Program-made: the position numbers and the translations under genes
In this document: positions 3,667 through 63,719 of the stretch, in pieces
How positions within the stretch are numbered: the first letter of the stretch is position 1
Layout of the letters: each line of letters opens with the position of its first letter
DNA from: Coffea arabica
Lineage: Eukaryota; Streptophyta; Magnoliopsida; Gentianales; Rubiaceae
Length of the DNA stretch: 64,000 bases
NCBI RefSeq assembly: GCF_036785885.1
Contig: NC_092312.1
Location: 13,286,001 to 13,350,000, forward strand
Direction of reading: 5' to 3'
Notes under the pieces: generated by a model
Databases searched by the model: none
What the model was told of the DNA's origin: nothing
The model's input: the letters and a program-made list of their open reading frames with translations, nothing else

Positions 3667-5085
3667 TCAGAAATCATCATCTTCGTGATCCTCCAGCTTC
3701 CAAGATCCATCCGACTGTTGAACCATGCCTTTATTTTGAATACACCACCAAGAAACCGGTACACAATGTTCATCCTTTAATGCATCCATATGCTTGTTAA
3801 CAAGTGCAACATCACGATTCGCCACCAGCTTGAATCCTCCTTGAAGCCCTTGTGTTCCCGCAATTCCATGCATGTAGCACTCTAGACTATGCCAAGATGA
3901 CAAGTTTCCAGGACTTTTCAGGTACTTTGATTTCGTTGTGTCAATTCCCAACTGTTCACCAACATCGGCATAACCTAGCAATGGATAATTTGGAACAACA
4001 TCTAGAGAATTACGAATACGTAGTACTTTAAGATTTTGTTGCTGAGAGAACACCTTTTCGAAGCCCTGATCCCCAACTCGAGGGCTCGCGTATACGAAGG
4101 CTGTGACAGGACAAGCCTTGCCTGGATTTTGTACAGATTTGTTGAATCCGTTAGCAACTATGTCCACTGCGTTTAGTGTCGCCACCGCGGCACCCAAGCT
4201 GTGACCTGTTACAGTTATACTAATTTCCTCACCTTTGAATTCCTCCACCAACCTCCTGATCTCGTCCAGAACCTTAAACATATACACCACAGGAGCAAAA
4301 AATTAAACTTAGTACCCAAAATAAAAACTGGAAATGGTTACCAAAAACAGGCCTAATTAAGAAAAATACAATGATGGGGTAGTTTCAAATTTTACCTGGT
4401 CTCTAGCACTGATCTTGTTGAAAGGTGATCTTGAATCATCTGTAGTGTAGATGGAGTACCAACCTTGGTGCACCTTAGGATCATCATCATTTTCTGTGAA
4501 AATCTTAGGTGCTGAGACTAACACAAATTCAAGATCATTAACCCATTCCAAACTCCTAACTGTTCCTCTCCAAGCAATCACAATATCCCTTCTTCCTAAT
4601 GCAACCTTTCCTTCATCTGTCGCCACAGCGACGTAACCCATCCAATTCGATTCCTTGCTCCATGCCTCTCTTGAGAACGATTTTACGATAAAAGCATCAG
4701 GAAGTTGGATAGATGATGTCGCGTACAAGTATTTTGTCACACGATACTTGAAGGGATTGCCATTCTGAAGGCCAACCTTAGCGAAAAGATCTTTCTTTGC
4801 ATAGAGGCAACTTCCTGCATACCTTGATGCCTTCTCTGCATTGAAGGAATCGTAAGTTGCTTGAGCCATTTCTCCATAGTGAATGATGTATCGACGAAGA
4901 TCGTAATCCAGGGGATCCAATAGACCATCCCAGTCGTAATTGCCGCTGAGAACTTTCCATCTTTTGGCTATGCTATCCATCTTTTTATCTATGGTATTGG
5001 AATCTATATTTTGGTCAGTGCTATCTATTTTTTTGGGCCTTTTTCTGAAACAATTCTTAAAATTCCCCATAACTAATCTATTCAA
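3667..5085 (-). CDS. Class II phospholipase A1 (PLA1-IIgamma/DSEL-like lipase)
   Basis: Lipase class 3 protein of the plant cytosolic PLA1-II group, which removes the sn-1 acyl chain of phospho- or galactolipids. There are two coding exons, 5085-4396 and 4272-3667, joined by a 123-bp phase-0 intron (CAG|gtaaaa ... tttaag|GTT), giving 431 aa. The family usually runs about 400-420. The N-terminal half has the family phrases [19 protein letters not shown] and IVIAWRGT. The second exon has the nucleophile elbow GHSLGAA (Ser about 255), the Asp region DVVPNYP and the His region CYMHGIAG, so the triad looks intact. No transit or signal peptide is visible, as expected for class II. A second in-frame ATG five codons on (5070) gives 426 aa and could be the true start. 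An AT microsatellite lies about 40 bp upstream. Confidence 0.93.
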
Positions 5086-5124
5086 GTTTTTATTTTGTAC
5101 TTCTTGCTCTTCAGGATGAGCTCA

Positions 5125-19210: not shown

Positions 19211-21385
19211 AAAATTCATATGGTTATTGCATCATTAATTACTGTATGTTTTTTTAAGCCTTCGTAGGTTATGAGTTCAAACAAGACGTGTATGCTTATG
19301 CTCAACAGCCTCAACCCAAAAAAAAAAAAAAGGTTCTTAATCATTGCGCATGTGATTTTAAATAGTAACTCATGTTTAACCTTTTACAAATTTCTCAAGA
19401 ACCCTATGTATGATTTAAATAGTAGCTCATGTTTCATATAATGTGGTACAAAACAATTCTAATCATATTTTCATTCAGTAAAATTACTAGGTTTTATCTA
19501 CTATTATTTGCTCTAGGGCTTAAACTATTCCAAAAGAAATTATGGCACTGTAACTACAAATTATACACAAATTTTCATTTTGTTTGAGACCTACCAAAGA
19601 TACATGAGAATCAATCGATATGTATGGCTTGTAAACTCGATTGGTTTGTTTATCAAATGTGTTCGATGTTTTTTGTAGCCAACTTTTGCATTCATGATTG
19701 TTTCTATTCCACTTAAATATCAATTTAACTATTGAATTACAATTTCTTTTATTGCTTAAAACCAACTTCTAACTAATATTTGCATATATGTACATCCATA
19801 ATAAAGTTGTGTATGCATACTCATCTGGACGCATACAAAATAAGAAAAATGTACACTTTTTTATTATTTATTGCCCAAAACTAAACTCATTTATTAAACA
19901 AATGCAATTGAGTTCAACTCATAAACATTCATGTAAGCTTATTTAGACTTGTATATAGATTAATTGGAGTCTAACACTCCAATTCAATAGCATCAAAGTA
20001 CTTCCATTGACGTACAACAATGAAAATGCGGACCAAATCTATTATGTTGAAGAGAATATGGATGGATGAGATGAGTATTCTTTTTTCATAATGGAGGTGA
20101 AGTCTTATTTTAATTTCGTTGGTGATTAAGTAAACTTATCTGGTCTTGATAGTTTAAAATTTATTTTACATTTAGCATTTGGGCATCTTCTTATATTTGA
20201 TAAAATTTTTCTTTTTTAGTAGGTTTATTAAAATGATTAAATTTGATGAGTTATTTTTTTTATAGGATTTTCTACTTATTCGAGCTTGATTAATTTGTGT
20301 TAAATGAGTTGACTTCAAATTTGGGATTTCTTTAAATTAACGAGACAAGCTCGTACACAATTTTATACTCGTTATATAAATGAGTTGAGTTCAAACCGAA
20401 TTTTCAATAAACCAAACAACCTCAAACAGAAAAAACTTAGCACATCCCGTTCATAACTGGATTGGTATATCATATAACTGATCAAGCTTTTAAATTTCAT
20501 ATCTTTATGATAGCTTGTGCTCCTAGTTATTTTCTTGTTAAGGGATTTTAGTAGCCTAACGGTAACTTTAAAAGTTACAATCATTTACAAAACTTCTTCA
20601 GTCGTTATTACTTCTATTATTTGAGATTTTGAATGCTTGCGTAAATGTCTAAAAAAATCATGGTGAAAATATCTAAAACATAAAGATAAAGATAACCAGA
20701 TAGGATAACAATAGTAACCAAAAGTAACCAAAGTAATCTATTATGACTTTCAAAATTTCAGAAAAATTAGTAACCAAAAGTAATCTATTATGACTTTCAA
20801 AATTGTGACGTCTATCACAATCCTATTTGGTTCTCTGGCTGAAAAACAGGTGAACTTGAAAGGACACCGGGGCGCGTGAACAAGTTAAAATCTGATTCCA
20901 GTTTTTAAAACTGCCAAGTTCATTTTGTTTTTGCCCTTTTCAAACTGGATCCAAGGAAAGAAGACCGTTCCTCGATTTTGCTGCCTTAATTACATTCACA
21001 AAATCTCTCTTAAGGACTAGGATTATATCCTACACTACAGGCTAGTGGCTAGTGCTACAGCCTACAGCCCAGTTTAGTGACTTCAGTCTTCTTCTCTCAG
21101 TTTTGACTGACCTCCTGGCTTCCTTCTCCATCACTACCGCCCCATCAGAATAGTTACCATTTACTTCCAATACCAACCATTGGCTTCTTCTTCATACAGC
21201 CTTTCAATCTTCTGGCAAAAGAGAAAGTGACCCATTTGGAGTTTTAGTCATGTCTTTATCTTTCCTTAACTTCAAAACAGATAGCATTGGCAAAAATTGA
21301 GAGATTACCATTTCACTGGGAGATAAGGGAAAAGAAAGAGAGGTCTGGGGCTGATCTGGGCTTCTCAAGAAACAGGCAAACAACA
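19211..21385. other. Upstream region of the CHUP1-like gene
   Basis: No coding exon is seen. The first 1.6 kb is AT-rich. From about 21000 the sequence becomes C/T-rich (CTTCTTCTCTCAG, CTTCCTTCTCCATCACTACC), as expected of a plant proximal promoter and 5' UTR. An in-frame open stretch precedes the ATG from 21287 but has no ATG of its own. A direct repeat, AGTAACCAAAAGTAA(C) with TCTATTATGACTTTCAAAAT, occurs twice at about 20707-20810. Confidence 0.45.
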
Positions 21386-24300
21386 ATGGTTGCTGGAAAA
21401 GTGAAAGTCGCCATGGGATTACAAAAATCACCACTCATAACTCCAAAGCCAAAACCCTCTTCAGAGTCATCCCCAAAACCAGCATTTTCCTCATCAGCCA
21501 GTTCTGGAAAGCAGCAGCCGTCAAACCAAAAAGGACCTGGTTTTTCGCGTTCATTTGGAGCTTATTTCCCCCGCTCGTCCGCCCAAGTCCAGCCTCGCCC
21601 GCCAGACGTGGCCGAGCTCCTTCGATTAGTGGAAGAGCTAAGGGAAAGGGAGTCCCGGTTGAAAACAGAACTGCTGGAGCAAAAACTCTTGAGAGAGTCT
21701 ATCGCCATTCTCCCGGTTCTGGAAAGTCAAATCTCTAACAAAGACGTGGAAATCGAAAAATCCAAGAGGAAGATCGAATGCTTAGAGGATGAAAACGAAA
21801 GATTACGCCAAGAAGTGGAGGTTTTACACATGGAAATTTCTAAGCAAAATTGTAGATACGAAGAAAAGATAAACTGTTTGGAATCACAAGTTTCAGAGAT
21901 GAAGAAGTCCAATGAAGAACTCGCAACCGCCGTTTCATCGTCACAAAAACAAGTCGATTTTCTCATCAAGTCGAAGAGTTTTAGGAAAAGTTTGAGCATA
22001 CAAACAAATGGTCAAGTGAATGTTCAAGCTACAGTTGATAGTAGTAATAATGGTGCTTTAAATTTGAAATCTGAATACGAGACAAAAAAGGAGGATAGCA
22101 CATTAGGACTGGTTGAGAACGAAAAACCAAGGCATGGTCGTCGCAACTCTGATGAAATAGTAGATTCTTCAGAAAATTTAATGGGTTTAAAATCCCGCGC
22201 TCCCCGGGTTCCTAAACCGCCTCCACGGCCGTCGTCTTCGCTTCTTTCATCGTGTTCATCTTCATCATCTGCTTCATTGCGTTCTTCATTATCTTCACCT
22301 TCATACGGGTGGTTATCTGATTCAGCAGAACGGGCACTGGCAGAAATATCTAATATTCCTCCACCGCCGCCACCTCCACCAGCCCCCCCAGCAGCAGCAG
22401 CAGTAAAACAAGCAATAGCTCCACCACCTCCTCCTCCTCCTCCTCCACCGCCGCCTTCACGGCATTCCAAGGCGGCTCCGCCACCACCTCCTCCCCCTCC
22501 TCCGCCAAGAGGGTTGAAGCCTGTGCCGGCTAAGGTGAGGAGGGTGCCCGAGGTGGTGGAGTTTTATCATTCCCTGATGAGAAGGGATTCGCGGCGGGAT
22601 ACTGGCTGCGGAGCAGGTGGCGCCGCCGAGGTTCCTGCGGCGGGTGCGACGGCTAAGGATATGATAGGAGAGATTGAGAACCGGTCTACTCATTTACTAG
22701 CTGTAAGTTTTATTTTTCTTTTTTCTTTTTTTTCTGAGCCCAATTATCTTTGTCTGAGTCTATTTACTATTTTGCCACTGGGTTTTGGTCCTTTGAGACC
22801 CTCTGTCATTGAAAGCTGACCAGTCCCTAGTGTCTTTTTGCTTTTGCTATACCCCTATCTGCGCTTTTTGTTGGTTTTTCCTTTGTTTTCTATACAAGAT
22901 AAGACAGCCTATGGATTCGACAAATCCAATTTGGTTTTTAATGCAAGGGTTGTCATCTTAATGCCAGCATGTGGGCAATTATGACAATTCAATGCCAAGA
23001 ACTTCTTCCAAATCAAAGTTACACTCAATGCAGAAGAACAACGGTTCTTGAAAATTTTCGTACTTTGTCTGTTGGTGGGACTTGGCCCCAGATTTCATAT
23101 TGTTCATAAAATTGGCTACCTCAAATGTGAAAATTTCATGTTGTTGTTGCCTACAACTATACCTATATCTTTGCCAAGTATATGAGAATTGTTAGAACAG
23201 ATATGGGGATTTAACATTTGTCACTACTACTGTTTGAAATGTTTAAATTGTTGCATCCCATTTTTATTGGTTAGTTGTTCAGATTATGATGTGGATAAAT
23301 TTCAGATTAAGACAGATGTAGAAACACAAGGAGATTTTATCAGGTTCCTAATCAAAGAAGTTGAGAATGCTGCATTTACAGATATTGAGGATGTTGTGCC
23401 TTTTGTAAAGTGGCTTGATGATGAGCTATCTTTCCTGGTAACCTTCGTCTTAATCTACAACAACTATTTTATTTTATTTTATTTTTTGGTATCTGCCCAC
23501 TTAAAATTGAGGTTCTCAATTTTCTTCCTTAGGTTGATGAAAGGGCAGTATTGAAACACTTCAATTGGCCTGAGCAGAAGGCAGATGCATTAAGAGAAGC
23601 TGCATTTGGGTATTGTGATCTGAAAAAGCTCGAATCTGAGGCGTCTTCATTTCGTGATGATCCTAGACACCCTTGTTCTTCGGCTCTCAAGAAAATGCAG
23701 GCCTTGTTTGATAAGTAATGCATTTCTCTCACTTACACTCGTTAAACTATCTTTTATTTTCAGTCTCTCATCTTTCTTTACAAGAATAGTTCTACTATAA
23801 AATCCCATAAATTTTTGTTTGGATTGGCATTTTTTCCCAAAAAAAAACTTTTACGTTTTCGGCGAACACATTTTTCAATCACCTTTTTACCTCACATACA
23901 TCAAATCGAAACAGCACATTTTTCTACAGATTTTTCAAAAAAAAAAATAGCAATCTAAGGATGATAAGGACACACCAACTATGATGCATGAATTTGTACG
24001 TAGGTCTATTATTCTAAGAATGATATAGGTGATTTAATTTCAGACCCTACATATTTAAATAAGTTTTTCTCATAGTTGTTTAACCTAATTGGTAGTTAGC
24101 TTTTTCGTTTCTGCATGACTTTTTAAGCGTACCTAGCTAGTAGACGAATATCGTAATTGATTGTTTTCCACCCTACTAAACAAGATGCTTGTTTTCTTGT
24201 GCAACAGAGTAGAGCATGGTGTCTACAATTTGTCAAGAATGAGGGAATCTGCAACAAACCGATACAAAGGGTTTCATATTCCAATGGAGTGGATGCTAGA

Positions 24301-53688: not shown

Positions 53689-56600
53689 TTAAGATAAGCA
53701 TTTGAGACACTTCATTAAGGCATCTGTTTGCTCAGGCTTGCCCACAGACACACGAACATAACCTGACAATTCTTTGTTGTTGTAGTGACGAATCATCACT
53801 CCCATTTTGGCAAGGTCTTCCTGCAAGACACCGAATGCCAGTAAGCCAAAGAAGTAGATGGAGCAATAACATCTTGTTGAAGTAATGAGGTAGCAACTTA
53901 CAAAAAAATGTGGACGGGAAAGGTTTGGAGTTTCTTTTAGATGAAGAAAAACCAGGCCATACACATTCATAATGAGTAGGTTGCAACACTGAAAACCATT
54001 GATCATACTCGACTCTAGAGCAAGATATAGTTGGATAATCACTTCTATACCTATAAGTATAATATATTTTCTACATTGTGCCTCTTGATTAAATCTGAAG
54101 TAAATTTACAACTATTAGAGGAGATGACAAAGAGAACCAATTTCAGGTTGCTTGGCTACCTGCTGACTGTGGTAAGCAGGAAATTGGCTCATCAAATAAT
54201 TCTAGCGTACAAGGTGGCAGAAAAGAATATGAACCCTGTTCATGAACTAAGGAAACAAGCTGAAGATGGGTTTGCAACTGCATACAGGACTAGCCATCAA
54301 GGGTCAAATGCTGAGATGAAGCTCCGTTTTTTGGCCAAGATAAGTGGTGGCTCAAAAGAATAGCCAAAAAATGGAACAATGATGGAAGAAGCAGAGTGGA
54401 TTCTGTATTCTCAAACCATAGAAGAGCTGCTGTATAGTAACGTTCATGAATATTTTTCAAAGAGGTTAACAGCAAGCAACTTAGCAGTCATACACAGGAG
54501 ATACATAAATACACACACAAGTACATTTTTTCATAAGGGAAAGAAAAGGCAGCAATCTTAAAGATAGGGAGGTTAAACTGAGTTATGGAGACGGAACAAT
54601 AACCCAAACTTTCATAGTGGCAAACAACAATGATCATTTAAAACTCAAAAAATTTTTTCATGATAACGAAGTATTGTACCTTCAACTTCTTGGCATCCAT
54701 TCCAGATGCAACCTCACAGAGGATGAAATTAGAATAACTTGGAAATGGATTAAGGAATGGTACTTCTTTCAAAAGCTTAAACAGCCTTTCACGTTCTTGC
54801 ACCAAAGCCACTTTTACTTTCTGGCAAAAATAAATCACATAGGTGATGGTCAATGGGACATCAAAAGTGAAGATTACCGATCGATCTGAACATCAGAATT
54901 TTTTAGGCCCTCTGCAAAGCCAGAGTCTTGAGCTTACCTCCAGGTAGGCAGAGTTTCTCAATGCTGCACATGCAGAGACTTCTGCTGCAACAGACACATT
55001 ATATGGTTGTTTTGCTCTCCAGAGGTATTCAATAATACTCAGGGGAAAAGCTCCATAACCCACACGAAGACCAGCTAAACCTGAATGACAAACATTCCAA
55101 TCCAAACTGATAGGTATAAAGCAGAGAGTAAAAGTTCCACAGGGTTCTAAATGTGATGTTTTATTTGAGTGCCTTTTCTTCTCTTTTATATTCTCCCCAT
55201 GCATGACTAATAAATAATTCTTGGACACATACACATAATTTAAACATGAGCCATCAATTAGATTTAAGTTGGTTCTCTGTCGCCATATTTTCAAAATATA
55301 TAACTTAGAAATAAGGATAGAAGAAAGACGCCCACTATATTACCCGGACTGAGGTATGGGAGTCCCGCCAACACGACTACTCTAGTGCAAAATGAAGAGT
55401 TGGACATAGGTATGGCAGAGCAAAGTGAAGAGTCAGGGTAATATAGCACACCCGTACCCATCCCCATGCAGAATCCTAGTTAAGACATTTCATGAATCAG
55501 ACACCTAGAAATATTTCCTTGTCCAACATCCATACCCAAGTCCATGTAGTATGGCTCCATATTATGCAAGGCAGGGTGTAAGACTTAAATCAATTTGATT
55601 AACTAATAAATAAAACCATCCTCTCTTCAAAGTGAGTAGTGAGGTTGGTCAGGCATTACAGTATCACAGTAACTGTTACGACCGGTCAAGGTTGTGACAG
55701 ATACGCCTTGAAATAGAAATAGGAGAAAGGTCTTCCTAAAATTCCAGACCGTTAAAAACTGAGGGCGTATAAACCTACCAGCTCTTTTACTGAATGTGCG
55801 GAGAACAATCAGATTCTCATGCTTCTTCACCCACTGCATTTTAGACTCAATTCCTGAGAATTCAATGTATGCCTCATCCAAAACAACCAATATGGGCAAA
55901 TCAAGTATTTTCAGAAGAGTATCATCTCCAATTATGCTGTTCCACACAAACACCAAAAAAGTTCATATTAAAACAAAATCCAGGAAGTTCACATTATCAT
56001 TTGCCTTTAGCAAATAAAGTCTTAACAGAAAAAACTAAATGACAAATATTTAAGCACAAATATATCATCATTGTTTACTGCAGTATGATTAAGAAGTAAA
56101 ATTTGAATACAAAGAATCATCTATCTTTTTACCAGACATATGAATAAATCTATGAATAAAGTAAAAGCAATTGGTCTTCTAAAAAATCTGACCGTTCATT
56201 CCATTTTTTCCTTAATTACAACATCTTAATCTTTTATTCAAAATAACTATAGAACAGGGATACTGTACTCCCACAATCTTTGTTCTCTTTCTTCATACTC
56301 TAATAAGTGATGAATTACAATAATTAAGCTTGCATGATGAGTTCCGGGCAGTTTCCATGTTCAACAATTGCATGGAAATAAATTACTGCAGCACTTACTG
56401 TTCTAATCGTACACTTTAGCTTCCCTTTGCCAACCTTGTAGTTACTATAATTTGGTTGTTCTTATGCAATCTTATTATTCATAGTTCTCTACCATATCTG
56501 TAGCAATTTGGAGGGCTATAATTGCTAAACAACCATAAAACATCAGAATCCCCACTTTCCTCCCCTTCCTCTCCTTCAGCCTTTACTATGGCACATTTAA

Positions 56601-59600
56601 GAGTATATATACATGGATCTGATTGAGAAATATCACCTTGCAAAAGGTATTTGTGATAAACTATAATAGAAGATATACCTGCTAAGAAAGATGCTTCTCA
56701 AAATAAAGGTACAAAAAAATTAAACCAGTTCCTATATAGCATAAGACTCAAATATGCCCAACTTGGAATCTAAATTAGCCAACATCAACTGTTGCAGCAC
56801 TAATGTTAGCCTCTTGTAGCCCAAATTTGAACTAGTATGAGTTTTTTAGTCAAGGAAATTACTTGACTGACTAGGATTGTTGTCAGTAAGATGCTTGATA
56901 GATTCTAATTTGGTCAATTTGAAGTAACTTCGGAAATTACTTCATAGTGAATTAGTATCAACTAATAGCTAAACTATGTAGAATTCCGCTTTAGAAGGTT
57001 ACGTAGCTCATTTTGAAGAGATGATTCTGGCAGAAAGAATATTTAGAGCTCATTTAAAATCAATTTGTCATAGTTTTCCTCGCCTATCAAGTGCCATCCT
57101 TATTTTACTTATCTGGACAAAAGATAATTTGAAATCATATTACTTTGCCTAGCTGACAAACATCTGACAGAGAAATTTGACACCCGCTATTTCTAGAGAC
57201 CCCACTCTAGAAATGAGATATCCGTAATGCGACCCACCTAAACAAAACCTGTAGGTATGCTTTCTCATTTCTCCATTTCTTCTTGTTGCCGGTACTTCGT
57301 TCCATTCATGTTCTATATTTTAGTCTTATTCAAGCAATTGGTAAAGTTTCATTCATTAAACATAAGAGAATAACTAAATGAAAAATAACAACTACATCAA
57401 AATTAAGCAATGAGAAAATGGAAGACCAGATGACTAGACAGTAAATTTAATCTCATTCTGTCAAAAGACAAATTGCAAACTAAACCACAAAAAGATCAGC
57501 ATTCTTGTAACCAAATATTAATTTTGCATTAGAAAAAACATGCATTGACTCGGAAGAACATACTGTAGAGACTCCTAAGTGATCAAATTCAAACTTAATG
57601 TTGCAACAAGTATGGAGCAACAAGTACCATATTTGATGCAAGGTAATACATAGATTGACCACATTTAAAGCAAGAAGTACCATTAAAGAACAGATGAAGT
57701 ATTAGATTACCTCCCATCTGGATTATTTGGTGAAGTTAAAAAAATGCATTTTGGTTTTTCCTGCTCAACAACCTGCACAATCCGTTCAACATCCAAGCTA
57801 AAATCCGAGTTGCGAGGTACTGTAACAGTTAAAGATGACCAATGTTATTATCCGTGAAATAATGAAGATAACCATCCAGAAATAAGACACTAAACCAGCT
57901 AAAACCTAGCTTTAGAAATTGAACCATTCCTCATTTTATGATTAGCACAATTGTCCTCTTTATCATCACTAAAAAGTGCATTCTTGCTAGGAAAAATGTT
58001 AGATCAGAAAGAAAATTACAAGATAGAGAACAGAACTGAGAAGGAATTCAATAACTCATGTTATTGTTAGGGAATGCAACCTATGACCAAAGGGATGAAA
58101 TCAAATACTCCAAAAAATATAAAAAAAAAAGTTTGTTAAAAATGGGATTCAAAATAATTGACACATGAATCTGGTATATTACCAGGAAGTAAACAGAGTT
58201 AGAATCAACTTTGGAAAAGATAATTAAGAGAAGACAAATATCAAAATTCTGTCTACCCTTAACTACAAAGGCACCATTAACAGCTGCATCAAACTCGTAC
58301 ATGGTAAAAGTAGGCGGACAGTCCACAATTTTATCACCTGGATCTAGTACACACCTGCACGGGATACATGCAAACAAAAGCTAAAGGTCAAAAACATGCA
58401 AAAGATTATATTGCAAAGTCACAATGCACAATAAGAAACCTGCAAAAGTAATGCACTTTATAAAGTACATCATCTTAGAAAACAGACCGCATAATCAAAT
58501 CAATGAGCTCATCTGCACCACAGCCCGCAAGAATGTATTCAGATCCAAGACCAGAATCTTCAGCAAGGGCTGCACGCAGTCGTCGACTTTCAGGGTCAGG
58601 GTAAATATACGGGAACTTCATTGCTCCCAAAGCTTCAAAAACCTGTAAGAAAGTGACATCTTAGCAGCCAGGAAAATTAAATATCACCTACAAATTGCAC
58701 GGAAAGCATATTTTTCTTAAAAGACCTATACTGATATTAACCCATAGATAAACTTAGGTAAGAAAAACACTATTTAACACATGACTTACCTCTGGTGGTG
58801 GGCCATATGGGTTTTCATTGGCGTCCAATTTTACAATATCCTCAGGTTTCCTACCTAGTTGAGCTGACAATACCTAATAAGAAGCATTGTAATGTTCACA
58901 AAATCCTCAGGCTTCATAACAAGGCATGATCACTAAACAAGCGAAAAGAATAACACTTTAGAAAAATAAATTAGTAAAAGGTTTCAAGATCTCAAGAAGT
59001 CAACAAACAAAAAGCTAATAGGAAGTAGCAGTTTCTCATAGCTCATACAGATATTCAAGGTCCAAATAGTACTAGCTTGAGGATAAAGGGCAACAGAGGC
59101 AAAGGATCACATTTTAAAAGGAGTAGACTTTTGCTCTACAGAACGCATAACTAGCTAACTGCTTCAGAGAAAGGCAAAAAAATTCACAAGGTAAGTAATA
59201 GCATATTGAATTGAAGCACAACCAAATCAAGTACGCTAGCACGCCAACACACTCCTCTAGAAGCACTACAAATTTCTCAAACAACTCAACTCAGCAGCTC
59301 ACTTTTAAGCATTTGTTTCAATTAAAACAGTCTCAAACAACTGTTTATCATTTCCGTATTGATAAAATAACAGAACCACAAAAAAAATGGAACTATTACT
59401 CAAAGAAGAATACAACAGTAAACGGAACAGAACTATTAAAATTAATGTTTCAGTCACCTCAAAAGGCAAAATGGGCTGATAAGGTTTCAACTTTCGGAGA
59501 TGGGATCGGATGAACGAGTCCCCAGAGACCTTCGACAAGCATTCTAGTTGTTCACCATCGTCTTTCTCGTTGACAGCAGCTGCAGGCACAGTTGACGATG

Positions 59601-59745
59601 CCATAATGCTAATCGAAGTCTGTAATCCTCTGTTGCCTCTGCTACAGATGCTTTGCTGCTTTCCCTCAAATGGCCAGATGGGCTTTGGTCTGTCAATGCA
59701 AAGAGATGACAATGTTGTGTTGCCCAGTAGCTCAATCACACCCAT
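53689..59745 (-). CDS. HISN6: Histidinol-phosphate aminotransferase, plastid precursor
   Basis: PLP enzyme (EC 2.6.1.9) that transaminates imidazole acetol-phosphate with glutamate to histidinol phosphate, in plastid histidine synthesis. Nine coding exons on the minus strand: 59745-59458, 58873-58790, 58642-58488, 58354-58257, 57819-57711, 55936-55779, 55080-54938, 54820-54680, 53820-53689. All phases fit, giving 435 aa. Residues 1-75 look like a transit peptide. Family motifs in order: [78 protein letters not shown] (PLP lysine about 295) and [15 protein letters not shown] 200-bp intron in the 5' UTR (59961-59762) is likely. Intron 5 is about 1.8 kb. Nothing suggests inactivity. Confidence 0.96.
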
Positions 59746-60110
59746 TACACCACAGAAACTTCTGCATTTACATTGAAAATCAAATGCTCAAAATATACAA
59801 CCAAATAAATAGTAAACAAAGCAAAGCAACAAAAAAAAATAAAATTACAGAATATAGATTTCGATCATTTTGGGCCCAAATTAACTCCATCGAGAATTCC
59901 CAAACCAAAAAGAAAGAAAAGAAAAAAGAAAAAAAAACAAAGATAGAAAAACCAGAAATACCGAGGAATAAGAACAAGGGCTGAGAATGAAGTTTCCCAG
60001 AGGAAGATTCCCAAATAGGCCTGGCTGCTCTGCTCTCGGCGCTGGAAATGAGGAGCCCAAATGGGAGAGATTCTGCAAAGAGTTATGAGCGGGGAGTGTG
60101 GTGGTTAGGC
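59746..60110 (-). promoter_or_regulatory. 5' UTR intron and promoter-proximal region of HISN6
   Basis: Read leftward, a GC-richer leader (about 60105-59962) ends TTCCTCG|GTATTTCTGG. After 200 bp of T-rich intron comes AAATGCAG|AAGTTTCTG at 59761, only 16 bases before the start codon. This gives a first non-coding exon and a short leader intron. The splice sites are read from sequence and the use of the leader is inferred. Confidence 0.55.
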
Positions 60111-61022: not shown

Positions 61023-62546
61023 TTTTGCAGCCGACTCCAATGGTTAATATACAATGGATGTATAAAAATTATGATGAAGTTGATCCAAATGACATTGAGT
61101 TGTCCTCTCAAGCTGTTTAATTCATCTGTTCGACTACCTCTGCACAACCTAACTCCAAAGGCTTCAAGCAATCTTCCCTTTTGTGTTTGAGTTTTTGTTC
61201 CTTTTGATAAAGCCAATCAGCCAGTTGAGGGGGGACAAATTGTAATCAAGAGAATTTGGTAGGCTTGTCTATCATCATAGGAAAATTATAGTTTCAAATG
61301 TTAAAAACATTAAATAGCTCATAAGCACGCTTTGCTACATTTCCCAAGAGGAAGCAACTTAATTAGAAGGGAGATTATCAAGAACCATTGGAAGCTTGGT
61401 ATGGTGTTGCATGTGACAAACCTTGACAGACTATCAGTTTCGACTGGTTTGTTCCGAAGATTTCCATGCAACGAATTAAATGGGCTTTAAAACTAAGCCA
61501 GTTTAAGAGAAAGAACCTCATATCTACGAGAGGAGATTGTGCCAACGATAGCACAATCAGTAATTTTTCCATAGTTTGATGATAATTGATAAGAAACTTG
61601 GACCAATAAGTATATGCACAAAGTCATACAAGAAGGAAAATTGGGAGACTTCTTGCTTTCCACTGCGGGGAATACTTGAATCGCTAGAGAGGCAAAGTTC
61701 CCAAGCATCATATTTTCACTCTAACTAGGAGATGTCGGTGCTTGGTGGAACCGTGGAAGTAATAGAAACGTTAAATCACCATGAACCTGAAAGCTAATAC
61801 CCGCCATTTTATGATATATCTTCTGACAGCTAGTAATCGTCCAAAATTCTGTATTTCAAATTTCAGGTCTGATTTACTGGGAATTTGTTGCTTTTTAGGA
61901 TGTGAAGCCATATTCTCCGTTAGAAGGTGAGAACACGTATAGATAGACTTCCCTTGCATCTTACGTTTAACCAATTGGCCTAGAAATTAGACCCCCGAAT
62001 GAGCCCGGTAACATATCATTGTTATCAATGACAGGGACAACCAAAGGTTAGCTACGTACGTAGACGGTCCTCCATTTATCTCACATAGCATTTCTTAATT
62101 ATCTTCATTTAGAATGTTACAATGAGTCTGTTTCCTACTATTTTGGACCTTAATGAGATAGGATAAGCATAAAAGTCACAATGTCATATTCTAACTTTTG
62201 CTTGTGAGCTTATCTTTGTAATTTTACTTGCTCTGTTTTTTTTTTACTACGTTTATTTCTAGAGCCCTAATGATCAGACATCAAGGCAAATATTTGTCAA
62301 AAATATCGAAATTTGGACCACCATAACGTCCTCATTTGTCAACATAAAAGTTTCAGCTGATAGGCAATGCCTTGTGGATCCAGATAGAAAAACAGCATCA
62401 GACGACATATGCAAAATACAAGCCGAAAGTCAAGAGAAAAGGACATTAGTTTGCTCCATACGGTAGGAAAGAAATGGAAATCAGTGTATTTAAGCAAAAA
62501 AAATTGAGTGCTAAATGCTAATAGTACATTGCTTATTCCTTAGACC
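61023..62546. other. Upstream region of the cysteine protease-like gene
   Basis: No gene could be built. Minus-strand frames at 61378-61974 lack a common frame, splice sites or a known family. From about 62030 the sequence is presumed promoter. Confidence 0.4.
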
Positions 62547-62554
62547 TATATAAG
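62547..62554 (+). promoter_or_regulatory. TATA box of the cysteine protease-like gene
   Basis: TATATAAG lies 67 bp upstream of the chosen ATG (62621), which places transcription start near 62580 with a leader of about 40 bases. This spacing also argues against the upstream in-frame ATG at 62555. Confidence 0.65.
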
Positions 62555-62620: not shown

Positions 62621-63719
62621 ATGGGATCAAGTATCTTGAAGCAGTTTGTTTGCTGTTTTCTGATCATTATCATTTCATGGGAACCACAGGCATTGTCTCG
62701 AATGATCCCTGATGTTTCCATGATAGAAAGGCATGAAGACTGGATGTCTAGTTATGGACGCCAGTACAAGGACGCTGCAGAGAAGGAAAGGCGCTATAAC
62801 ATATTCAAGGCAAATGTCAAGTATATAGATTTTGTTAATAATGCAGGGAATAAACCATATAAGCTAGCTGTCAATGAATTTGCAGACCTGAGCAATGATG
62901 AGTTTAAAGCTGCTCATATTGGACAAAGAAACCTCTCCAAGACAGCAAAGTCGAGCACAGCAAACCCTCTCATGTATGAAAATGTCACCTCAGTTCCCCC
63001 TAGCATTGATTGGAGGAAGAAAGGAGCTGTTACACCTATCAGGGATTCAACATGTGGTAAGTGTGAAGCAGTTTTTAGATTCTTTATTGATTGTTATTTT
63101 GCAATTGTTCTATAGAATTCATAATAATTGTATAGGAGCTTGGACAATTCCCGCTGTTGATGCCGTGGAAGGGCTTACCAAGATCAAAACTGGAAAGCTG
63201 TACACCTTGTCAGTTCAAGAAATTCTGGACTGTGATGGTGGTGGTCACAATGGTTGCGAAGGGGGTTTTACAGATGACGCCTTCCAATTCATTAAACAGC
63301 ATGGGCTGACTACTGAGAGCAACTACCCTTCTAAAGGAAATGTAGGCACTTGTGACACCAAGAAGGAAGACGAACCTGTGGCAAAAATTAGTGGCTATGA
63401 GAATGTACCAGTTGACAATGAGAATGCGCTTATGCAGGCAGTAGCTAACCAACCAGTTGCTGTCATAGTTGATGCTTCTGGTATGGACTTCCAATTTTAC
63501 TCGAGTGGTGTCTTCACTGGAGACTGTGGAACTGCTTTAGACCATGGTGTAACATTAGTTGGCTACGGCACCAGTAATGGCAAGTTGAAGTATTGGCTGA
63601 TTAAGAACTCATGGGGTGTTGACTGGGGAGAGGATGGATACATGAGGATGCAACGAGATATTGCTGCTAAGGAAGGTTTGTGTGGAATTGCTATGGAAGC
63701 CAAGTATCCTACTAAATGA
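62621..63719 (+). CDS. Papain-like (C1A) cysteine protease homologue lacking the catalytic Cys
   Basis: SAG39/SAG12-type member of the papain family. Two exons, 62621-63056 and 63136-63719 (phase 1), giving 339 aa, full length for the family. Residues 1-26 form a signal peptide. An I29 prodomain (about 36-95) has ERRYNIFKANVKYIDF and NEFADLSNDEF. The mature domain starts VPPSIDWRKKGAVTPIRD (about 125). The usual DQGQCGSCWAFS is replaced by DSTCGAWTIP: Cys25 and the oxyanion Gln19 are gone and one residue is missing on each side of the first disulfide Cys. The catalytic His (LDHGV, 282) and Asn (KNSWG, 303), the NGCEGG motif and all six structural Cys remain. The intron sits at the family's conserved place. 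The downstream acceptor is required, since an earlier TATAG acceptor would bring a stop. Probably secreted or vacuolar and proteolytically inactive; any role is unknown. Confidence 0.92.

Follow-up and report, generated by a model that had tools for sequence, protein, structure and literature searches.

A Papain-Like Gene Without the Catalytic Cysteine

The window analyzed here is a stretch of 64,000 nucleotides of Coffea arabica DNA (C3:13286001-13350000) from a genome of 1.198 Gb, in which contigs were paired by like content (e.g., C3/C4 and C17/C18). At 62621-63719 on the forward strand, it contains an intact gene for a papain-like protein that lacks the catalytic cysteine. The gene consists of two exons, and its spliced frame stays open to the end and encodes 339 residues, in agreement with the initial annotation of this stretch. 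Exon 1 (62621-63056, +) comprises a signal-like hydrophobic start, the I29 prodomain and the beginning of the mature domain up to Cys145, which corresponds to papain Cys22. Exon 2 (63136-63719, +) encodes the remainder of the papain-like domain through the stop codon. The exons are separated by a GT-AG intron of 79 bp (63057-63135, +) in phase 1, with the consensus donor GTAAGT; the modeled paralogs have an intron at the same place. The hydrophobic start, a putative signal peptide, was judged by eye.

By descent, the gene product is a member of the papain family C1A. The Pfam profile Peptidase_C1 matches residues 125-338 over its full length (profile positions 1-220 of 220) with 231.5 bits, the curated cut-off being 20.7. 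The prodomain (62732-62905, +; residues 38-95), also present in the initial annotation, matches Pfam Inhibitor_I29 (PF08246) with 70.5 bits against a cut-off of 24.4, as is typical of a C1A propeptide, and its ERFNIN-type pattern is intact as judged by eye. A paralog on C17, described below, reaches 207.4 bits for Peptidase_C1 and 69 bits for I29. A scan with NCBIfam gave no match for the gene product. Triticain alpha (8zlq) and a cysteine endopeptidase (1s4v) are its closest relatives among solved structures. The active site of the latter contains Cys-Trp, that of the 8zlq chain Ala-Trp, presumably a mutant made to crystallize the proenzyme. If this holds, the proenzyme fold tolerates Ala at the place of the nucleophile.

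Approximately 70 bases upstream of the ATG lies a TATA-like box, CTATATAAG (62546-62554, +). The TATA box of the initial annotation is a candidate that is weak when taken alone, as the window has two matches of this kind where 0.73 are expected. The upstream regions of the C3 and C17 genes have a 38-base stretch with 79% identity in common, and CCTATATAAG also occurs in front of both. A scan for sigma-70 promoters has no meaning for plant DNA.

Remodeling of the Active Site

The active site extends across the exon junction, with IRDSTCG on the side of exon 1 and AWTIP on the side of exon 2. Aligned to the Cys-bearing paralogs, in which this region reads DQGQCG(C/S)CWAFS, it becomes DS-TCG-AWTIP. 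Compared to 14 rows of Cys-bearing paralogs, and with approximate papain residue numbers, Ser has replaced Gln19 and Ala has replaced Cys25, columns 20 and 24 are missing through deletion, and AFS at 27-29 has become TIP. The catalytic Cys and the oxyanion Gln have thus indeed disappeared through two one-residue deletions and substitutions, as had been proposed, although this Gln is situated three residues before the first disulfide Cys and not four. The codons of Ala147-Trp148 (GCT TGG; 63138-63143, +) put Ala at the catalytic Cys place, and the nucleophilic Cys that precedes Trp in an active C1A peptidase is Ala in all four intact copies in the genome, on C3, C4, C17, and C18. The oxyanion Gln is replaced by Ser on C3 and C4 and by Val on C17 and C18. 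The catalytic His and Asn are kept as annotated, at His282 (63543-63545, +) and Asn303 (63606-63608, +), and both are found in 4/4 copies in the alignment, within LDHG or IDHG and KNSWG. The six disulfide cysteines are likewise present: in all four copies, the mature part contains six Cys and no more, each at an aligned disulfide place, the bonds themselves being predicted from the alignment. Six Cys-bearing rows have 7 to 9 Cys in this part. If the usual three disulfides form, no spare thiol is left.

Two circumstances could have restored the active site, namely a better sequence with a CGSCW-type run or a different splice. For the sequence, three further genomic copies carry the same lesion, which excludes an assembly error. 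For the splice, 33 GT-AG combinations that keep the frame were tried, with donors at 62951-63120 and acceptors at 63062-63262. None of them gave Cys-Trp, which excludes such splicing within these junctions.

Copies in the Genome and Probable Single Origin of the Loss

The same intact gene is present on C4. Compared to C3, 432/436 positions of exon 1 and 582/584 of exon 2 are identical without gaps; over the coding sequence, this amounts to 1014/1020 identical bases without indels and three amino-acid differences. A second intact gene resides on C17 and C18, where REVSCG and AWTIPAVDAVE flank introns of 936 and 923 bp, respectively. CGAWTIPAVDAVE and both active-site deletions are common to all four copies.

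The comparison covered relatives within the same genome. A profile search listed 140 exon-level matches, and the best 150 of 235 candidates were scored, because of which the numbers of family members are lower bounds. Among 38 family loci, near-copies and broken copies included, the cysteine place is occupied by Cys in 34 (33 with Cys-Trp, and a broken copy with Cys-Arg). The four loci without Cys are exactly the copies on C3, C4, C17, and C18. Gene models were sought in 30 loci and obtained in 26 (none for L019, L022, L039, and L040). Twenty of these were included in the alignment, leaving out near-copies and the odd short model L033, 13 in a second tree and 10 in the codon branch model described below. 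Within the Cys-bearing part of the family, at least 13 near-identical matches to a SAG12-like exon 2 are located at C11:16.520-16.633 Mb, several of them about 8.9 kb apart, compared to at least three at C12:15.722-15.776 Mb. This imbalance between the partner contigs reflects either an effect of the assembly or a recent amplification on one of them.

In a tree of 20 rows, the four copies without Cys form one clade with 100/100 support, and the same clade returns with 100/100 in the 13-row tree from which 22 active-site columns were taken out. In these trees, built from sequences of this genome, the clade is nested among coffee paralogs with SCW or CCW at the beginning of exon 2. In the mature domain, the four copies also have two further gaps of one residue each in common, at columns 62 and 78; their placing is less sure, as some other rows have gaps nearby. 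In all, and with gaps counted, there are 29 mature columns in which the four copies share a state that is absent from the 14 Cys-bearing rows. The simplest reading of these sequences is that the nucleophile was lost once, before the two genes separated.

Motif and tree also suggest a SAG12-like descent of the lineage. A CCWAF motif has been described for SAG12 and its homologs (PMC4949590). The coffee paralogs with CCW or SCW share the two-exon structure and the I29 prodomain with the gene studied here, which differs from SAG12-like proteases in lacking the nucleophile and the oxyanion Gln and in having a shortened active-site loop.

Selection After the Loss

Between the C3-type and the C17-type gene (335 codons), the nonsynonymous distance (dN) is 0.21 and the synonymous distance (dS) 1.01. 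Their ratio, omega, equals 0.209, with a likelihood ratio test statistic (LRT) of 87.7 against an omega of 1. By part, omega is 0.25 for the prepro region and 0.18 for the mature region. Out of 12 Cys-bearing pairs, 11 have an omega between 0.06 and 0.32, such as 0.104 for L013/L020 (dS 0.92) and 0.145 for L028/L020 (dS 1.50); the twelfth, L024/L030, has an omega of 1.01 at a dS of 0.02. The pair without Cys is approximately twice as loose as Cys-bearing pairs at a comparable distance, but it is still under firm constraint. A comparison of dS between the two parts (1.27 for prepro, 0.90 for mature) gave no sign of gene conversion between the two genes.

A codon branch model gave an omega of 0.194 within the clade and of 0.153 for the background of Cys-bearing paralogs. 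Equality of both was not rejected (LRT 1.5), while an omega of 1 was rejected (LRT 101.7). The model was run with a custom script on 10 rows and 314 codons, with 12 active-site columns left out and one rate over sites. As the tree was fixed and some forks among the Cys-bearing rows are weak (bootstrap 41 to 84), its values are approximate. The constraint that the initial annotation suggested looking for outside the active site is therefore present after the loss, and a disabled frame or neutral evolution, as expected for a pseudogene, was not found. The stem branch has an omega of 0.23, for which a value of 1 was rejected (LRT 13.4) and equality with the background was not (LRT 1.5), so that relaxed selection on this branch was not retained. 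This result carries little weight, because synonymous sites are nearly saturated between the clade and the remaining rows (pairwise dS 2.6 to 7.0, and a meaningless dS in the fit of the mature L037/L013 pair). Residue conservation was counted as well. Among the columns that are invariant in the 14 Cys-bearing rows, 31/38 of the prepro region are retained in both genes. Of 110 in the mature region, both genes retain 78 and a single gene retains 13, while 19 are lost from both.

A decayed tandem copy offers a contrast. This pseudogene fragment (L011:2889-3530 on C3 and L009:6707-7344 on C4) is situated on C3 about 0.9 to 1.5 kb beyond the end of the window. Duplicating the promoter and exon 1, it starts about 1.2 kb after the stop codon of the gene and ends near residue 119. 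On both contigs it carries stops, frame breaks and indels, and its exon-1-like part is identical between C3 and C4 at 399/428 positions with five gap runs, whereas the intact gene has none. The fragment shows decay; the intact gene does not.

Other Features of the Window and Genome

Elsewhere in the window, pieces of a class 3 lipase (Pfam Lipase_3) were found at 3667-5121 on the reverse strand, which we take to resemble phospholipase A1-II. A long open frame with proline-rich stretches at 21248-22819 (+) has no Pfam match and presumably resembles CHUP1-type proteins. At 53689-59787 (-), there are pieces that resemble a histidinol-phosphate aminotransferase gene by eye, three of which gave no Pfam match as single pieces. 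In the rest of the genome, clusters of matches to the methyltransferase family of the caffeine enzymes occur at C18:32.88-33.06 Mb, at C17:35.90-36.06 Mb, and on C1 and C2 near 0.7-0.8 Mb. Two of these places closely match 2eg5 and 2efj; an exon on C1 agrees with PDB 2efj (3,7-dimethylxanthine methyltransferase), presumably the coffee caffeine synthase, in 132/133 residues.

A Probable Conserved Pseudo-Protease and Its Alternatives

The gene probably represents a conserved pseudo-protease of SAG12-like descent, in which the nucleophile was lost once in the ancestor of both genes and purifying selection followed. Like its relatives, the protein would enter the secretory pathway, fold and be made as a zymogen; presumably unable to cleave peptides, it would work by binding. 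The initial annotation had left the choice between a pseudo-protease kept for a non-catalytic job and a very young pseudogene. The former is favored by the lesion shared by two intact genes on different contig pairs at a dS of about 1.0 and an omega of 0.21, and by a post-loss purifying selection that is not distinguishably weaker than that on the Cys-bearing paralogs; the same data contradict the latter.

Several observations weigh against a conserved pseudo-protease. The pairs of partner contigs taken alone have omegas of 0.28 and 0.30 that do not differ significantly from 1 (LRT 2.1 and 2.0), because too few changes have accumulated. Two glycines of the GCxGG motif are missing from the copy on C17/C18. 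Moreover, the two genes without Cys agree in 33/47 columns of the cleft compared to 129/166 elsewhere, whereas in all four Cys-bearing pairs compared, conservation is higher inside the cleft than outside it (42, 37, 35, and 35 of 47, against 127/166, 118/165, 116/161, and 111/165), on small counts in cleft columns picked by the author from five motifs. The absence of special conservation in the former cleft weighs against a simple decoy. With no excess there, a cleft-binding decoy was dropped as the evident reading and kept as a possibility.

The same pattern, a constrained overall fold with a cleft that does not stand out, is what would be predicted for a P34-like protein of vacuolar storage or ligand binding (soybean P34, Gly m Bd 30K), or for a role of another surface. 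A storage protein would be expected to be under looser constraint than an omega of 0.2, and this explanation is unlikely. It is quite improbable that the prodomain is the working part, inhibiting Cys-bearing SAG12-like proteases in trans either free or within the whole protein. The retention of its invariant columns in both genes and the I29 scores of 70.5 and 69 bits fit such a role, and some cathepsins are inhibited by the propeptides of cathepsins K, L, and S with constants in the nanomolar range (PMC7863939). However, the mature part is more constrained between the genes than the prepro part (omega 0.18 versus 0.25), the reverse of what a prodomain-only function predicts.

There is very little chance that the gene is a pseudogene, young or old, that looks intact by chance. 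The non-significant partner pairs and the true pseudogene fragment of the same gene, just downstream of it, would agree with decay. Against it stand four open copies, a C3/C4 coding sequence without indels and the rejection of an omega of 1 after the loss (LRT 101.7), and a young pseudogene is ruled out by the shared lesion at a dS of about 1.0 and an omega of 0.21 together with the gap-free C3/C4 coding sequence. An enzyme that uses another nucleophile or performs another reaction is very improbable too. Silicateins are papain-fold proteins that retain some chemistry with a replaced nucleophile, and the four copies retain the triad residues His and Asn, but the nucleophile place offers neither Cys nor Ser (Ala-Trp-Thr), all six mature Cys sit at disulfide places, and the oxyanion Gln has given way to Ser in one gene and to Val in the other. 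Finally, the lesion is located at an exon junction, where gene models easily fail. An error of assembly or splice model is nevertheless next to impossible given the same lesion at four separate assembly places, the consensus donor and the 0/33 alternatives that give Cys-Trp.

Relation to Known Systems and Possible Function

P34 carries Gly at the catalytic Cys place, while the coffee gene combines Ala with two flanking one-residue deletions and the loss of Gln19. The human proteins TINAG and TINAL are inactive papain-like proteins as well, although, as animal proteins, they have extra domains; both they and P34 are likened here by description only. P34 resembles the coffee protein as a plant member of the papain superfamily that is reported to have neither catalytic cysteine nor enzymatic function and to be synthesized with a prepro region (PMC2292165). 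A different review is undecided on whether P34 belongs to the family (PMC10931198). TINAG and TINAL affect the interaction between tubule cells and matrix (PMC10318531). Plant FtsHi pseudo-proteases, such as AtFtsHi3, have measurable roles (PMC10151539), but belong to the FtsH family, which is unrelated to papain. In coffee, a study of cysteine proteinases reports two genes that possess all four catalytic residues; in the passages covered, it mentions no such protein without Cys (PMC3311568). A study of the leaf apoplast lists an aleurain-type cysteine proteinase (PMC4484983). No description of a coffee papain-like pseudo-protease or of this active site was found in the open literature, with the motif itself and plant sequence databases not searched and subscription papers mostly outside. 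Papain-like proteins without Cys are thus a known kind, while the loop remodeled by deletions in this lineage appears to be new.

As to its function, the pseudo-protease may, tentatively, be a non-catalytic partner or competitor in the network of plant proteases and their inhibitors. It could engage inhibitors or pathogen effectors aimed at the Cys-bearing SAG12-like proteases of the same genome, or alternatively lend its prodomain to restrain these proteases. Such a role is favored because of the descent of the gene and what is reported for Rcr3 and Pip1. These tomato proteins are grouped with SAG12-like proteases. Rcr3 has been suggested to act as a decoy that mimics Pip1 for Avr2, and of the 11 immune proteases for which pathogen-derived inhibitors are known, nine are Cys proteases (PMC8042752). 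A broader proposal, which we regard as doubtful, is that a single remodeling of the active-site loop, older than the genus, gave rise to a dedicated non-catalytic branch of immune and senescence papain-like proteases, whose role toward inhibitors and effectors is that of a bait or regulator. Members would then be expected in many related plants under names like SAG39-like protease.

When plant papain-like proteases are surveyed as a family, such genes may be taken for enzymes or discarded: one survey dropped sequences without catalytic Cys or His (PMC4949590), and another filtered by domain presence, large deletions and length (PMC7659060). With two intact genes, each present as two near-identical copies, tests of expression, editing and binding are direct. 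A conserved member without Cys in a crop, beside many Cys-bearing paralogs, is a natural and testable case of a protease fold that is retained without catalysis.
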